In this document: piece by piece, positions 4,353 to 26,661 of the stretch
Numbering within the stretch: position 1 is the stretch's first letter
Layout: every line of letters starts with the position of its first letter
Source: Terrimonas pollutisoli
Lineage (GTDB): Bacteria > Bacteroidota > Bacteroidia > Chitinophagales > Chitinophagaceae
Direction of reading: 5' to 3'
Assembly: GCF_029360765.1 (NCBI RefSeq)
Contig: NZ_JARKNA010000001.1
Coordinates: 124,001 to 188,000, forward strand
DNA length: 64,000 nt
Program-made: the position numbers and the translations under genes
The notes under the pieces: generated by a model
Told to the model about the DNA's origin: nothing
What the model saw: the letters and a program-made list of their open reading frames with translations, nothing else
Databases searched by the model: none

Positions 4353-6161
4353 TTATTTCACCTCCTGCATCTCCACTAATTTTTTATAAAATCCATTTTG
4401 CGCAATCAATCCTTCATGCGTTCCCCGCTCAACGATTTTCCCCTTTTGCAAGACAACGATTTCATCTGCATGACGGATAGTAGATAACCGGTGTGCAATG
4501 ACAATGCTGGTTCTGTTTTGCATCATATTGTTGATGGCATCCTGTACCAATCTTTCGCTTTCGGTGTCGAGTGATGAAGTAGCTTCGTCCAAGATCAATA
4601 TCGGTGGATTTTTTACGACAGCCCTTGCAATGGTCAGTCGCTGCCTTTCACCACCACTCAATTTGCTACCCCTGTCGCCAATATTGGAGTTATAATCTTT
4701 TTCTTTCTGAATAATGAAATTATGCGCATTCGCTACTTTAGCAGCATCAGTAATTTCTTCTTCAGTGGCCGATTGTTTGCCAATTCTGATGTTATTTGCA
4801 ATGCTGTCATTAAACAGAATAGGCTCCTGTGTTACAATACTCATCAGGCTGCGAATCGATTGCAAAGAATAATCCTTGATATTCACACCATCTATCAAAA
4901 CCTCACCCCCTGTTACATCATGAAAGCGGGGAACCAGGTCAGCCAGGGTTGACTTGCCTGCACCGGAAGATCCAACCAATGCGATAGTCTTTCCTTTTTT
5001 TATAGTGAGATTGATATTATCCAGTATCGTCGCATCACTGTAGGCAAAAGTTACGTTGCGAAACTCTATTTGATCATTGAAAGAATGCAACACTTTTCCA
5101 TTTATATTTTCATCAACAACTATTGGTGCTTTTAAGACTTCTTCTACTCTTATCAATGCAGCGGCGCCACGCTGAATATTAAAGAATGCGGTCGAAATAT
5201 TTTTTGCCGGGTTAATAAGCATAGCAAAGGAGGCGATATAAGCAATCAATTCCTTTGCTTCAAGCCCCTCATTTTCCAATACCAGGCGTCCACCAAAATA
5301 GAGAATGGTACTTAATACAATTACACCTAATAGTTCGGTAAGTGGAGAAGCCAGGTCTCTTCTCGCACCCATTTTTTTTCTGATCTCAAATAATTCAGCA
5401 TTGACAGCATGAAAACGGCTGCTTAACAGTTTTTCTACAAGAAATGCTTTTATCACTCTTAAGCCACCCAGTGTTTCGTCAAGTATAGATAGACCTTCAC
5501 CCAATTTTACGGCAGCATCCTGTGACTGGCGCTTTAATGTCCGGCTAACACGGCCAATCAAAAGACCTGTAACCGGTAGAAGGATAAGTAAGAATAGCGA
5601 AAGCTTGGGAGATATGATCACCAGAAAGATCAGGTAGCCTAATACAGTCAGGGGATCTTTGATCAGGCCATCAAATGTGCCTACCACTGAACCTTCAATT
5701 TCTGCAATATCGTTTGTCATCCTTGAAATAACATCGCCTTTTCTTTTTTCAGTAAAGTAACCGACCGGAAGGCGTAATATCTTCTCATATAAATCTCCCC
5801 GTAATTCAGTAATGATCGCACTGCGAACAGGTACCGAGATCCGGTTGGATAAATAAACAAACAGGTTTTTTAAAAAAGTGGCTGTGATAATAAAAATGCA
5901 GATCGCAGTAAGACCTCCCACTTTGCCTTTTTCGTTGATGATTTGTTCAAGCGTGTTGGTGATATATGAGCCAAGGACATTTGTACGAACCATTTCTGTT
6001 CCACCCGCTTGACCCGTGTCGAATATCAAACCAAAAAACGGGATAAGCATTCCTATGGAAACAACACCAAATATGGTAGCCAGTACGGTACAAAGAAAAT
6101 AAAGTGCAAGCTTGCCGGTATGTTTTTTTAAATAACTGAAAATCCTTGAATATTTCTTCAT
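4353..6161 (-). CDS. ABC transporter, fused permease/ATPase (MsbA-like lipid/multidrug exporter)
   Basis: Walker A GSSGAGKST, signature LSGGERQR, Walker B ILILDEATSSLD; N-terminal TM domain; no C39 peptidase domain. Confidence 0.92.
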   Translation of the reverse strand: MKKYSRIFSYLKKHTGKLALYFLCTVLATIFGVVSIGMLIPFFGLIFDTGQAGGTEMVRTNVLGSYITNTLEQIINEKGKVGGLTAICIFIITATFLKNLFVYLSNRISVPVRSAIITELRGDLYEKILRLPVGYFTEKRKGDVISRMTNDIAEIEGSVVGTFDGLIKDPLTVLGYLIFLVIISPKLSLFLLILLPVTGLLIGRVSRTLKRQSQDAAVKLGEGLSILDETLGGLRVIKAFLVEKLLSSRFHAVNAELFEIRKKMGARRDLASPLTELLGVIVLSTILYFGGRLVLENEGLEAKELIAYIASFAMLINPAKNISTAFFNIQRGAAALIRVEEVLKAPIVVDENINGKVLHSFNDQIEFRNVTFAYSDATILDNINLTIKKGKTIALVGSSGAGKSTLADLVPRFHDVTGGEVLIDGVNIKDYSLQSIRSLMSIVTQEPILFNDSIANNIRIGKQSATEEEITDAAKVANAHNFIIQKEKDYNSNIGDRGSKLSGGERQRLTIARAVVKNPPILILDEATSSLDTESERLVQDAINNMMQNRTSIVIAHRLSTIRHADEIVVLQKGKIVERGTHEGLIAQNGFYKKLVEMQEVK

Positions 6162-9115: not shown

Positions 9116-10246
9116 ATGCTAGATGTATTATTGACAGCTTCTGTTTCCTTTATTATATCTTTCCTTGCGATACCGGTTGTAATGCAAATTGCAGAGCAAA
9201 AGAAATTATATGATATACCGGATGAACGCAAACTACATACACATACAGTTACATCTTTAGGCGGCGTTGGTATTTTTGGCGGTTTTTTATTAGCTGCTTT
9301 ATTATCTATCCAGGGTTATTTGAATCCTGAGTTTCAATATTTCTTCGCCGCAGCATTGGTAATTTTCTTCCTTGGGTTAAAGGATGACCTGATCGTATTA
9401 TCAGCCAGCAAAAAGTTTGTTGGGCAAGTGGTGGCTGCATCCATCATTATTCATCTGGGTGGAATTAAACTGGACAGCATGCATGGCTTGTTCGGATTTG
9501 ACCAATTGCCCGAAGCATTTGCACTGGCCCTGACTTATCTCACCATCATTGTCATTATTAATTCTTTTAATTTGATTGATGGTATCGATGGTTTGGCAGG
9601 AAGTTTAGGCGTGATGACCATGCTTGTTTTTGGAACCTACTTTTATATGGTAGGTTACCAGGCATACGCCTTATTAGCCTATTCGCTTGGAGGTAGCCTT
9701 ATCGCTTTTCTCATCTTTAATCATCATCCTGCCAAGATCTTTATGGGTGATTCGGGTTCTCTGATGATCGGCCTGGTAAATTCCATATTGGTCATTAAAT
9801 TTATAAATGTAGCCAGCGACCCGGCCATTGCCATTCCTATTGAGTCAGCAGTAGCAATTGGCTTTTCTATCATGATCGTTCCTTTGTTGGATACTTTGCG
9901 GGTATTTGCTATACGCATTTCTAAAGGATGCTCGCCTTTTACGCCTGATCGTAATCATATTCATCACTTATTACTTAACTGGGGTCTTGGGCATGCAGCT
10001 ATTGCCCTGTTTTGTGTGGGTATTAATGTGGCCTTTATCATATTCGCTTACACGTTTCGTTCCATCGGCTCTACTTATTTATTGTTAAGCATGTTGTGTA
10101 TTGCATTTGCGGGGTTTGGGTTTCTCTATTACCGGAGGCCGAAACGGACTGTTGTTACAAGGCGTATGAATGGCACTACCGAATTGAAAACAACTTCTAA
10201 AGTTGTTACACTAACACAGGAGGCAGCAGCGGCGGACAGCAAATAA
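9116..10246 (+). CDS. MraY/WecA family undecaprenyl-phosphate GlcNAc-1-phosphate transferase (GT4)
   Basis: NSFNLIDGIDGLAGSLG, FMGDSGSLMIG, HIHHLLLNWG; first ATG of the ORF is 9116. Confidence 0.9.
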   Translation: MLDVLLTASVSFIISFLAIPVVMQIAEQKKLYDIPDERKLHTHTVTSLGGVGIFGGFLLAALLSIQGYLNPEFQYFFAAALVIFFLGLKDDLIVLSASKKFVGQVVAASIIIHLGGIKLDSMHGLFGFDQLPEAFALALTYLTIIVIINSFNLIDGIDGLAGSLGVMTMLVFGTYFYMVGYQAYALLAYSLGGSLIAFLIFNHHPAKIFMGDSGSLMIGLVNSILVIKFINVASDPAIAIPIESAVAIGFSIMIVPLLDTLRVFAIRISKGCSPFTPDRNHIHHLLLNWGLGHAAIALFCVGINVAFIIFAYTFRSIGSTYLLLSMLCIAFAGFGFLYYRRPKRTVVTRRMNGTTELKTTSKVVTLTQEAAAADSK

Positions 10247-21918: not shown

Positions 21919-21965
21919 GAGCTTGGTATAAGCGATATGCAGTATTATTTTTTAAATTTGTGCAG

Positions 21966-22202
21966 ATGCCCACCGTATTTTACTTTAAAGGTTACCGGTT
22001 TTATTTTTTTAGTCAGGAAAGTGATGAACCAGTTCATATACATGTAGAAAAAGCGGAAGCATCAGCTAAATTCTGGCTTGAACCCGAAATAAGAGAAGAG
22101 TATTCTTATGGTTTTTCCGGAAGGCAGCGAAAAGAAATTAAGCAGATCATTATTGATAACCTGGATACACTTAAAAGAGCCTGGCATGAACATTTCAAAT
22201 AA
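21966..22202 (+). CDS. DUF4160 domain protein
   Basis: MPTVFYFKGYRFYFFSQESDEPVHIHVEKAEASAKFWL. Confidence 0.85.
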   Translation: MPTVFYFKGYRFYFFSQESDEPVHIHVEKAEASAKFWLEPEIREEYSYGFSGRQRKEIKQIIIDNLDTLKRAWHEHFK

Positions 22203-22539
22203 AATACAGAATAAACGGAGTTCCGATCCTTTCGATATCCTGATTTTTGAAAAAGGATTGAGAATTAAAAATGTAATGATTGATAAAGACCTTGATCTGA
22301 TGCTTGTTGTTTTAAACAACGGGTTTGTTGTTAAAGAGATGCTTTCAGATTACCCGTCTCTGAAAAATGCGTCTATTAAAAACCTTAACGACTGGCGGCT
22401 TATTTCCGGAGGCATTGGCATTTCATGGAAGAAAGTCAACGAAGATCTTTCATTGAAAGGTTTTTTAAAAAATGGCGCTTTACAGGAAACACTCAGGCTT
22501 TTACAGGGAAAAGGAGCTTTAAAAAAGATAATTGCCTGA
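22186..22539 (+). CDS. DUF2442 domain protein
   Basis: In-frame ATG at 22186 overlaps the upstream gene by 17 nt; LVVLNNGFVVKEMLSDYPSLKNAS...DWRLISGGIGISW. Confidence 0.8.
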   Translation: MNISNKIQNKRSSDPFDILIFEKGLRIKNVMIDKDLDLMLVVLNNGFVVKEMLSDYPSLKNASIKNLNDWRLISGGIGISWKKVNEDLSLKGFLKNGALQETLRLLQGKGALKKIIA

Positions 22540-23516: not shown

Positions 23517-24518
23517 TGTAGTTATTATGAAAACTTTGGTTACAGAAAGGTTATAGGTCAGGAAAAGGGTTATGTTTCCCTCTCTTATGTCAATAGTGAA
23601 GGGAAAAAGATAAAGGATAGCTGTTTGCTTATGAAAGGACGTTTTGCCTTCACTGGAAAGATCACAGAGCCTACTATGGGTTTTCTAAGAGGACAGGTAA
23701 GTTCAATGGAAGATAACGATCCTAATGCGACAAGTTTTTATCTTGAACCGACCCGAATGAAGATAGTGGTTAAATTTAATCTATTCAAAAAGGCTAAAGT
23801 GGCCGGTTCAAAAACTCAGGTTGAGAATGAAAAATTGAATGCTCAAATCAGTCAAATAAAAGACACAGGCGCTGTGTATATAGCTAAAGTGAATAGAGTG
23901 TTGAAAAGTTTCATATATAATCACTCCAATTCCTATGTAAGTGTTTTTAAACTTTTGCTTAATAGGTATCGATGGCCCTTTGACACAGTTCGATTGCTTT
24001 ATGAAAGACTAGACCCTGGATTAGTGAAGAGTTATTATGGGATTCCTTTGACTGCTTCCGTTAATGAAATGCGTGAGAATTCAGCTGGTAGACCTGCTAA
24101 AGAATTTTCCACTTTAGATATTAACAACAGTCCATTACAATTGACAATGTTTAAAGGTAAATATATCTTATTAGATTTTTGGGCTAGTTGGTGCGTCCCA
24201 TGTAGAATATCAGTTCCCAATTTTTTGAAGTTGTATGATAAATATCATACTAAAGGACTTGAAATAATAGCAATATCTGTAGACAAGGACAGCACTGCAT
24301 GGAGAAACGCCGTGCGAGTTGACCATACTGAAATCTGGTACCATATCCGCAGCGACGGCGGTACAAAAGATACTGTCAATATCGCTAACAAATATGGTGT
24401 TCGGTTTTACCCAACAAAAATGCTTATTAACAGAGAAGGAACGATTATTGGCCGCTATTCAGGCACAGAAGAAGATCACTTATTGAATAGTAAGCTTAGT
24501 GAATTGATGGGTGAGTAA
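23517..24518 (+). pseudogene. DUF4369/TlpA-like thioredoxin protein lacking start codon and signal peptide
   Basis: Frame open from 23517 reads YRKVIGQEKGYVSLSYVNSEGKKIKDSCLLMKGRFAFTGKITEP (DUF4369-like) with no ATG before 23631. C-terminal thioredoxin domain has WASWCVPC. Confidence 0.65.
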
Positions 24519-24570
24519 AATTGAAATAGTAAAAATATTAAGGGATCGTAGATAAAATGAATGAATAAGT

Positions 24571-24654
24571 GTTTTTCCTTTCTACAAACAGCCCGACATC
24601 ATGGACTGCGGCCCAACTTGCATTGAGGACTTACAATATTTTCTTTTGGAATAG
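24571..24654 (+). pseudogene. remnant of N-terminal C39 peptidase domain of a bacteriocin-type ABC exporter (PCAT)
   Basis: Translation VFPFYKQPDIMDCGPTCIEDLQYFLLE*, matching the C39 N-terminal block with the catalytic-Cys motif DCGPTC. The ATG at 24561 is in a different frame. Confidence 0.75.
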
Positions 24655-24774
24655 TACCCTGAAAGAAAAGCCCGGCGGTACTAAACTGATGTGGCCACAT
24701 TGGTTGCCGGGCAGCCAAAGCCTTTGAAGCTTAAAACTAAGGCAGACACAATTTTTAAACTTTAAATTTCAAAA

Positions 24775-24978
24775 ATGAAAATGCAAAAAATGAGCCTTGC
24801 CAGCATCACGGGAAAGTTAAGCAGGGCGGAAATGAAAAAAATTATGGCGGGAAGTGGAGCAGGATGTGGCACTGCATGTAATACCACCTGTACACATTCC
24901 GACGGCAGGGCAGGTAACTGTCATATGCCAACTGAAGGGCCTAATATGGGAAAGTGTTTTTGCGTTTCTGGGTATTAA
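24775..24978 (+). CDS. small Cys-rich precursor peptide with GG-type leader (Bacteroidetes natural-product precursor type)
   Basis: MKMQKMSLASITGKLSRAEMKKIMAGSGAGCGTACNTTCTHSDGRAGNCHMPTEGPNMGKCFCVSGY; leader motif KLSRAEMKKIMAG; six core cysteines. Confidence 0.85.
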   Translation: MKMQKMSLASITGKLSRAEMKKIMAGSGAGCGTACNTTCTHSDGRAGNCHMPTEGPNMGKCFCVSGY

Positions 24979-24998
24979 TATTTTGATATTTTGGTTTA

Positions 24999-25033
24999 AG
25001 CTGCAGTACTTAATTAGGTGTACTGCAGCTTTG
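24999..25033 (+). terminator. terminator after the precursor peptide gene
   Basis: Perfect 11-bp stem agctgcagtac / gtactgcagct followed by ttgtt. Confidence 0.8.
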
Positions 25034-25126
25034 TTAGTTGTTTCCTAAAAGAAAATCAAGCTTAGTGTTTTAGAAACAACAAATGTTTTGCCTTTCAGAA
25101 TAAAAAGATAAACCAATCAAATAGGT

Positions 25127-26251
25127 ATGCGATTACATATTAGTTTTGTGATAGTATTATGCCTGACAACCATTGCTGCTGTTCATGCGCAAAAGTATCG
25201 GGCTCCCTCAGTAAACATAGGTGATCCCGCTCCGCCTATGCGGGTGTATAGTTGGATAAAAGGGACACCTGTCAATATTTTTGAGAAGGGGAATATCTAT
25301 GTTGTGGATTTATGGGCAACATGGTGCCAGCCTTGTATCGCCGAAATGCCTCGTCTTTCCGCTTTGGCCCGTAAATACAGAGGTCATGTTACTGTTCTTG
25401 GTGTAGATGTTTTGGAGAGGAAAACTACAACACTGCGCAAAATAAAAACCTTTGTTGACAGTATGGGTGCGCAAATGGACTATAATGTGATTATGGCAGA
25501 CAGCGGTCAGATAGAGAAAGACTGGCTCAGTGCCACTGAGGAAATGGGTATTCCTACAACTTTCATAGTAGATAGGGAAGGAAGGCTTGGATGGATGGGC
25601 CATCCCTGCGATAATTTCGAAGATGCTCTATCCAAAATTGTGAATGGTAGTTGGGATATTAATAAGGCATTGGCGAAAAGAAATTTAGAATTTCGATTGA
25701 GAAACCTGGAGGATTCATTAAAAGAGCAATTAGAGTTTGCACCAAATGGGAATTATAGAAACGATAGTTGGAAACGGGATTCCGCATTATTACTGGTAGA
25801 TGAAGTGGCGAAAGCCGAACCCCTGGTAAAATATACTCCCATGGTAGCTTCTCAAATATTCTCTACATTACTTAAGACAAATACGAAAAAAGCCTACGAA
25901 TATGGTAAAGAGGTTCTTGAAACAACCACTTACGAGAAACCTGCTGGCTTTATTATCAGTGGAGCCATAGAGAGATTATCAAGCGAGATTAATTTCCCTC
26001 CGGAAATCTATCAATTGGGCCTTGATGCTATTCAGGTAGAATTAGATGAAGTTCTCTCCTGCTATCCGGAAATTAGAAAAGTCTATAAACATTATTACAA
26101 AAGGGCAAAGTGGTATGGGGTCTTGGGTAATAAATCAAAAGCAGTTGAGGCATTGGAAAAAGCTATTGAAATTATGAAATCTCAAAACGACTATCTGGAA
26201 ACAGATCTGGCTCTGTGTGAGGCATGGTTAAAACAATATAAAAAAATGTAG
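25127..26251 (+). CDS. TlpA-like thioredoxin family protein with C-terminal helical (TPR-like) region
   Basis: Signal peptide; VVDLWATWCQPCIAEMPRL; GIPTTFIVDREGRLGW. Confidence 0.88.
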   Translation: MRLHISFVIVLCLTTIAAVHAQKYRAPSVNIGDPAPPMRVYSWIKGTPVNIFEKGNIYVVDLWATWCQPCIAEMPRLSALARKYRGHVTVLGVDVLERKTTTLRKIKTFVDSMGAQMDYNVIMADSGQIEKDWLSATEEMGIPTTFIVDREGRLGWMGHPCDNFEDALSKIVNGSWDINKALAKRNLEFRLRNLEDSLKEQLEFAPNGNYRNDSWKRDSALLLVDEVAKAEPLVKYTPMVASQIFSTLLKTNTKKAYEYGKEVLETTTYEKPAGFIISGAIERLSSEINFPPEIYQLGLDAIQVELDEVLSCYPEIRKVYKHYYKRAKWYGVLGNKSKAVEALEKAIEIMKSQNDYLETDLALCEAWLKQYKKM

Positions 26252-26277
26252 TGATAGGATAAGGGGCGTATGAATTT

Positions 26278-26661
26278 ATGAAACAACATTTCTCCATTGG
26301 TCATGCTCAGCTGCTAGTAACGGACCATATTAACCCGGGGAATACCAATTATTACGTAGAAGCGCTGATACAACAATATATTTTTGGGAAAGTAAAAAAA
26401 GGGCAGCAGGTGCTTTTAAAGTTTCCAGCATATACCTGCCATGAATTTGGCACTGGGAAGGGAGTTGTTGAATTGATCAACGCAACGCCTTCAGACAGTG
26501 GTTATCTTGCAAAAGTTTCTTTGCAGGGGGGATTAATCACTAACTATAAAAAACAACTCCGTTATAATGACAAGCTTCCTGTGCAGGCGGATATTATTAC
26601 TGAAAACCTGAACCTGCTTCAAAGAGTTTTTTATAATCTCAGAAAAAATATATCCCGATAA
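26278..26661 (+). pseudogene. C-terminal remnant of HlyD-family membrane fusion protein (bacteriocin secretion type)
   Basis: NYYVEALIQQYIFGKVKKGQQVLLKFPAYTCHEFGTGKGVVELINATPSDSGYLAKVSL...LQRVFYNLRK; no N-terminal TM or coiled-coil portion present. Confidence 0.8.

Follow-up and report, generated by a model that had tools for sequence, protein, structure and literature searches.

A probable relic of a peptide maturation and export cluster in Terrimonas pollutisoli retains an apparently undescribed structured RNA

We describe a locus of Terrimonas pollutisoli which is, with good confidence, what remains of a cluster for peptide maturation and export that has lost its exporter and its VKOR/thioredoxin oxidase and in which an RNA leader, a peptide precursor and a TlpA-like gene are structurally intact. 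The locus lies in a stretch of 64,000 nucleotides (contig NZ_JARKNA010000001.1, positions 124,001 to 188,000), here called the window, which we compared with other genomes; G and L numbers are our handles for these genomes and their sequences.

Results

A preliminary description of the window had listed five pieces on the + strand: a DUF4369/TlpA gene without its start, a C39 peptidase remnant, an intact precursor, an intact TlpA-like gene and the end of a HlyD gene. All five are found in the window in that order, with the corrections given below, and the features of the locus are as follows.

23517–24518, + strand: remnant of a DUF4369/TlpA gene (Pfam; alignment with eight intact homologues)
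24574–24621, + strand: first codons of a C39 ABC exporter, FPFYKQPDIMDCGPTC (score 85 against 25 for the next best; profile E=2e-5)
24622–24654, + strand: last ten codons and stop of a VKOR/thioredoxin oxidase, IEDLQYFLLE-stop (VKOR ends of G351 and G364; VKOR alignment)
24640–24745, + strand: structured RNA element (covariation; covariance-model match of 113 bits; no Rfam family)
24775–24978, + strand: intact precursor of 67 residues (alignment; homologues in 41 of the 399 genomes of the family sample)
24998–25031, + strand: terminator-like stem-loop of 12 bp, 3' of the precursor (fold of -19.5 kcal/mol, z -3.6)
25127–26251, + strand: intact TlpA-like gene whose C-terminal part is helical and possibly TPR (Pfam; 43% identical relative in G109/L069)
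26317–26658, + strand: C-terminal remnant of a HlyD adaptor, the last ~114 of ~445 residues (profile E=1e-55; alignment; full-length protein matches)

The frame of the DUF4369/TlpA gene is open and matches DUF4369 (E=4.6e-10) and Thioredoxin_8 (E=3.4e-18) in Pfam. Its start is indeed missing: the signal peptide of the intact homologues is absent from the alignment, as are about 45 internal residues, and the CXXC thioredoxin domain is still open. The TlpA-like gene further downstream is intact as described (AhpC-TSA, E=1.5e-11), with a TPR match (E=0.003) that falls under Pfam's cut-off. According to these Pfam matches, TlpA-like genes flank the precursor on both sides, placing a thiol oxidoreductase beside it.

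A contig scan with the TlpA-like protein recovered a relative in a single genome. This close relative (L069:10001-11121, MAG SZAS-21, G109) is frameshifted and sits after an RNA and a precursor of the same kind. The terminator-like hairpin is absent from the list of the consensus terminator scan, and a DUF4160 and a DUF2442 gene lie next to each other on the upstream side of the relic (window 21960–22539).

The HlyD remnant is real and covers positions 322–435 of the 435-position profile, with up to 55% identity to full-length proteins of ~445 residues. Its homology begins at 26317, and the start proposed earlier, 26278, is therefore about 40 nt early. No complete HlyD-type adaptor is present, only these last residues, and the genome holds no further copy of the type.

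The C39 remnant is likewise confirmed, as the 16-codon N-terminus of an exporter. Compared with the consensus 16-mer of exporters, FPFYKQPDIMDCGPTC scores 85, and no other place in any of the six frames of the window scores above 25, on which ground chance similarity was rejected. A profile built from four exporters also recovers the fragment, at positions 3–21 of 736. The nearest upstream ATG (24561) is out of frame.

The ten codons which follow GPTC are not C39 sequence. They are the C-terminus of a VKOR/thioredoxin oxidase, fused in frame (GPTC directly followed by IEDLQYFLLE and the stop), and are identical letter for letter to the VKOR end in G351 (L079/L132) and G364 (L087/L126). The VKOR ends of G081, G030, G104 and others match closely in the VKOR alignment. 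In relatives with a matching VKOR end the precursor follows directly after VKOR, as it does in the window. VKOR normally precedes the precursor, and the first codons of the exporter are here joined in frame to the last codons of VKOR. The earlier reading was right about the loss of the exporter and missed the VKOR fusion and loss, the RNA leader and a possible history of cassette replacement.

The VKOR protein of relatives (for example L045:1246-2853) combines a VKOR domain with a C39-like one at the N-terminus and a DsbA-like thioredoxin domain. The C39-like domain aligns with no more than the latter portion of the C39 profile (46–130 of 133), and this domain may dock leaders without cutting them. 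The protein lies in two frames at L126:10180-11794 (G364), L129:8451-10051 (G104) and L130:9037-10635 (G102), which are split genes or frameshifts.

A C39 exporter and a related HlyD that might act in trans, as the preliminary description had suggested looking for, were found nowhere else in the genome. The genome contains no PF03412 match for a C39 peptidase, no VKOR gene and no second HlyD of the same type, and its precursor of this type is a single copy. None of its 44 ABC ATPase matches belongs to a frame as long as an exporter (~730 aa), and of a C39 ABC exporter with all its domains only the FPFYKQPDIMDCGPTC codons are left in the window. An exporter or oxidase acting in trans was rejected on the absence of C39 and VKOR from the genome, and no C39-type rescue is visible. 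Because there is no C39, no VKOR and no ATPase frame of ~730 aa, we conclude that exporter and oxidase have been lost, unless they are missing from the assembly, which consists of 74 contigs (6.3 Mb) and in which misassembly or an unassembled exporter or VKOR could mimic loss.

Complete homologous loci pairing these families are present in relatives, and neither of the two outcomes that had been named as counting against the preliminary description (no such loci, or no significant profile hits for the C39 and HlyD fragments) occurred. Full VKOR-precursor-TlpA-C39 ABC-HlyD loci are found in other genomes of the family; a C39 ABC exporter and HlyD adjoin precursor or TlpA genes in G062 (L045), G081 (L046), G041 (L048), G017 (L049), G364, G369, G351, G140 and G352, and most such loci also carry the VKOR/thioredoxin protein. 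One frequent arrangement runs VKOR, precursor, TlpA, C39 exporter, HlyD, and several precursor-TlpA pairs are often present.

The cassettes within one genome are nearly identical in one part and divergent in the other: at the DNA level the RNA is 82–98% and the leader 83–96% identical (~90%), whereas the protein identity of the cores is 24–41% and that of the TlpA partners 21–31%. This pattern agrees with an exporter and an RNA-level control common to the cassettes, each of which has its own core and partner, and possibly also with recombination where RNA and leader are shared. Fragments of C39 or VKOR lie beside the RNA element at L133:5434-5511 (G352), L132:3252-3317 (the second copy in G351) and L069 ~9500-9570 (G109). 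Since gene fragments occur at this spot in all three genomes, decay or cassette exchange at the RNA element is, as far as these sequences tell, recurrent.

Such exchange offers a plausible, though not our favoured, account of the window itself, in which a unit of VKOR tail, RNA, precursor and TlpA recombined into a C39-HlyD pair and took the place of its central part in one step, the unit being the arrival and the exporter pair the victim. On either side of the unit stand the C39 start and the HlyD end, like the two ends of one neighbouring pair, units beginning inside the VKOR tail exist elsewhere (the second copy in G351 and an isolated unit in G109), and RNA and leaders ~90% identical next to cores and TlpA partners of 21–41% identity are what a recombination seam would be expected to leave. 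However, the same order is also accounted for by two deletions that arose independently in a tandem cluster, and neither flanking repeats nor recombinase genes were seen at the borders of the unit; the search there for repeats as a sign of transposition gave none that was convincing.

The precursor is intact, as claimed, and has six Cys, but its leader ends in MAG and not in GG, an ending shared by many homologues in the alignment. It is made up of a conserved leader, MKMQKMSLASITGKLSRAEMKKIMAG, and a 6-Cys core. In an alignment of the leader with 13 homologues G26 is invariant, consistent with a cleavable leader of the GG/AG type, and this leader is common to precursors in other genomes of the family. 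Two NCBIfam families, TIGR04149 and NF047798, resemble it in their conserved helix and AG/GG cleavage site; the precursor scores 15.1 of 25 and 14.6 of 23.5 bits, respectively, and reaches neither cut-off. Its Cys content and the neighbouring oxidoreductases suggest that the peptide product would be disulfide-bonded.

Other conserved elements stand upstream of precursors in some relatives. In G062 and G145, precursors whose leader is MKPLTKEEMKQIKGG have in front of them a different element of ~120 nt (AAAATTGTAGGGCTTCCCCTAC...), located 5' of 16980 and 18761 in L045 and 5' of 13285, 15251 and 16979 in L051. A third, of ~210 nt, precedes three precursors of G041 (L048:268-479, 2316-2527 and 4639-4850), its copies being 68–91% identical.

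Between the VKOR stop, which its first hairpin overlaps, and the precursor ATG lies an RNA element of ~106 nt, which recurs in relatives. Its predicted helices, all on the + strand, are:

24640–24649/24659–24668, + strand: P1, a 10-bp hairpin overlapping the VKOR stop
24670–24676/24706–24712, + strand: P2, enclosing the 3' strand of the pseudoknot
24685–24692/24697–24704, + strand: P3
24652–24658/24677–24683, + strand: 7-bp covarying pseudoknot, pairing the P1 loop
about 24720–24743, + strand: 3' hairpin of the element

Because MAFFT displaced the G062/G145 and G081-type rows when all groups of the element were aligned together, nine rows that aligned well were taken to build the covariance model, and the set was then extended with this model. 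On the nine sequences 90.8% of the cells pair, compared with 32–52% when the partners are slid. In the covariance-model alignment of 25 sequences 189 cells are doubly changed, compared with 16–50 in slid controls, and the pseudoknot, although left out of the model, has 24 such cells compared with 2–9. Its variants include UAGUACC/GGUACUA, UAGUUCC/GGAACUA, UAGCUC/GAGCUA, UAGGCGA/UUGCCUA and UAAGCAA/UUGCUUA. Compensatory changes exceed both shuffled and slid controls, as in a conserved structured RNA. Constraint on VKOR coding as the sole cause of the conservation was rejected, G250 keeping the motif, including UAG, without a VKOR frame.

The model finds the element in 18 genomes of the family, namely 16 of the 399 in the family sample and two more in the order sample, and, among 386 genomes sampled across the phylum, in none outside the family. 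Every copy inspected lies within a peptide locus, nearly always immediately 5' of a precursor or TlpA gene; a TlpA gene follows in two cases in G352, and the contig ends first after the copy in G102. No Rfam family matches at gathering, all matches by E-value being far under threshold. In a search of Rfam matches with E up to 10 the Pistol ribozyme was not found in the window; its topology, with a 5' hairpin loop that pairs with a strand between P2 and P3, is presumably alike, and its linker, catalytic and cleavage-site bases are, we assume, not those of the window RNA. Searches of the open-access literature found no published account of the gene arrangement or of the RNA. The element looks like an undescribed cis-acting family, and its position and conservation suggest that it may be a leader which governs the first gene of every cassette, in its expression or its stability.

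That the element acts as DNA, as a recombination or repeat element at cassette borders, would suit its marking of those borders and its near-identity between the cassettes of one genome. We nevertheless consider this improbable: the 6.3-Mb genome of the window has one copy, which also led us to reject a dispersed repeat; the inspected copies are on the coding strand, nearly all directly upstream of a start codon; and the G-U pairs and the covarying pseudoknot are in keeping with single-stranded RNA.

Discussion

We therefore return to the reading of the locus as a remnant. In the complete form, the order would be VKOR/thioredoxin oxidase, RNA leader, precursor, dedicated TlpA, C39 ABC exporter and HlyD. 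From what is known of these families, VKOR would oxidise the Cys-rich peptide, the TlpA partner would adjust its disulfides as an isomerase or reductase, and the C39 exporter with HlyD would cleave the leader and export the peptide, with the RNA leader presumably acting on the first gene cassette by cassette. In this genome the precursor is now an orphan, and it was probably stranded not long ago, because all remaining pieces are still open frames; precursor and RNA may be dead in this genome. It is very unlikely that an unrelated exporter, such as an ordinary ABC or RND pump, now serves the precursor and the TlpA-like gene, the loss of C39 being a change of route and not decay, for although precursor, RNA and TlpA-like gene are intact and ABC ATPases are many, no C39 peptidase is there to remove the leader and the adjacent TlpA copy has no signal peptide.

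In the bacteroidetocin loci of Bacteroidales (Coyne et al. 2019, PMC6671954) a C39-peptidase ABC transporter and a thiol oxidoreductase accompany a short peptide that contains Cys and has a leader of the double-Gly type. The complete relatives described here are alike in leader type, Cys-containing peptide, thiol oxidoreductase and C39 transporter, and differ in adding DUF4369/TlpA partners, HlyD, a VKOR/thioredoxin oxidase that carries a C39-like domain, several precursor-TlpA cassettes and the RNA leader. Bacteroidetocin loci also have a five-TM protein. The window copy has no transporter, and the likeness is one of gene content. The relatives also match C39 ABC exporter and HlyD systems (type I peptide secretion, colicin V- or NHLP-type) over their full length, whereas the window keeps terminal fragments of both, its peptidase, membrane and ATPase domains being gone. 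The window copy is a non-functional member of the C39 export systems, since neither a complete exporter nor a complete adaptor is present.

More speculatively, we tentatively propose that the element represents a pseudoknotted cis-acting RNA of a new class, either riboswitch-like or active in processing, which has whole families of disulfide-peptide cassettes under its control within one Bacteroidetes family, that its near-identity between cassettes also makes it the seam of cassette exchange, and that relics like the one in the window are by-products.

Within one bacterial family, a defined covarying RNA that goes with a single kind of peptide locus can guide genome mining for hidden Cys-rich peptides and is at the same time a candidate regulatory element open to direct testing. 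The relic shows what survives once exporter and oxidase go, and the near-identical RNA and leaders next to divergent cores and TlpA partners suggest how peptide repertoires diversify. The locus represents a known kind of system in a decayed state and keeps what looks like a new cis-acting RNA family.
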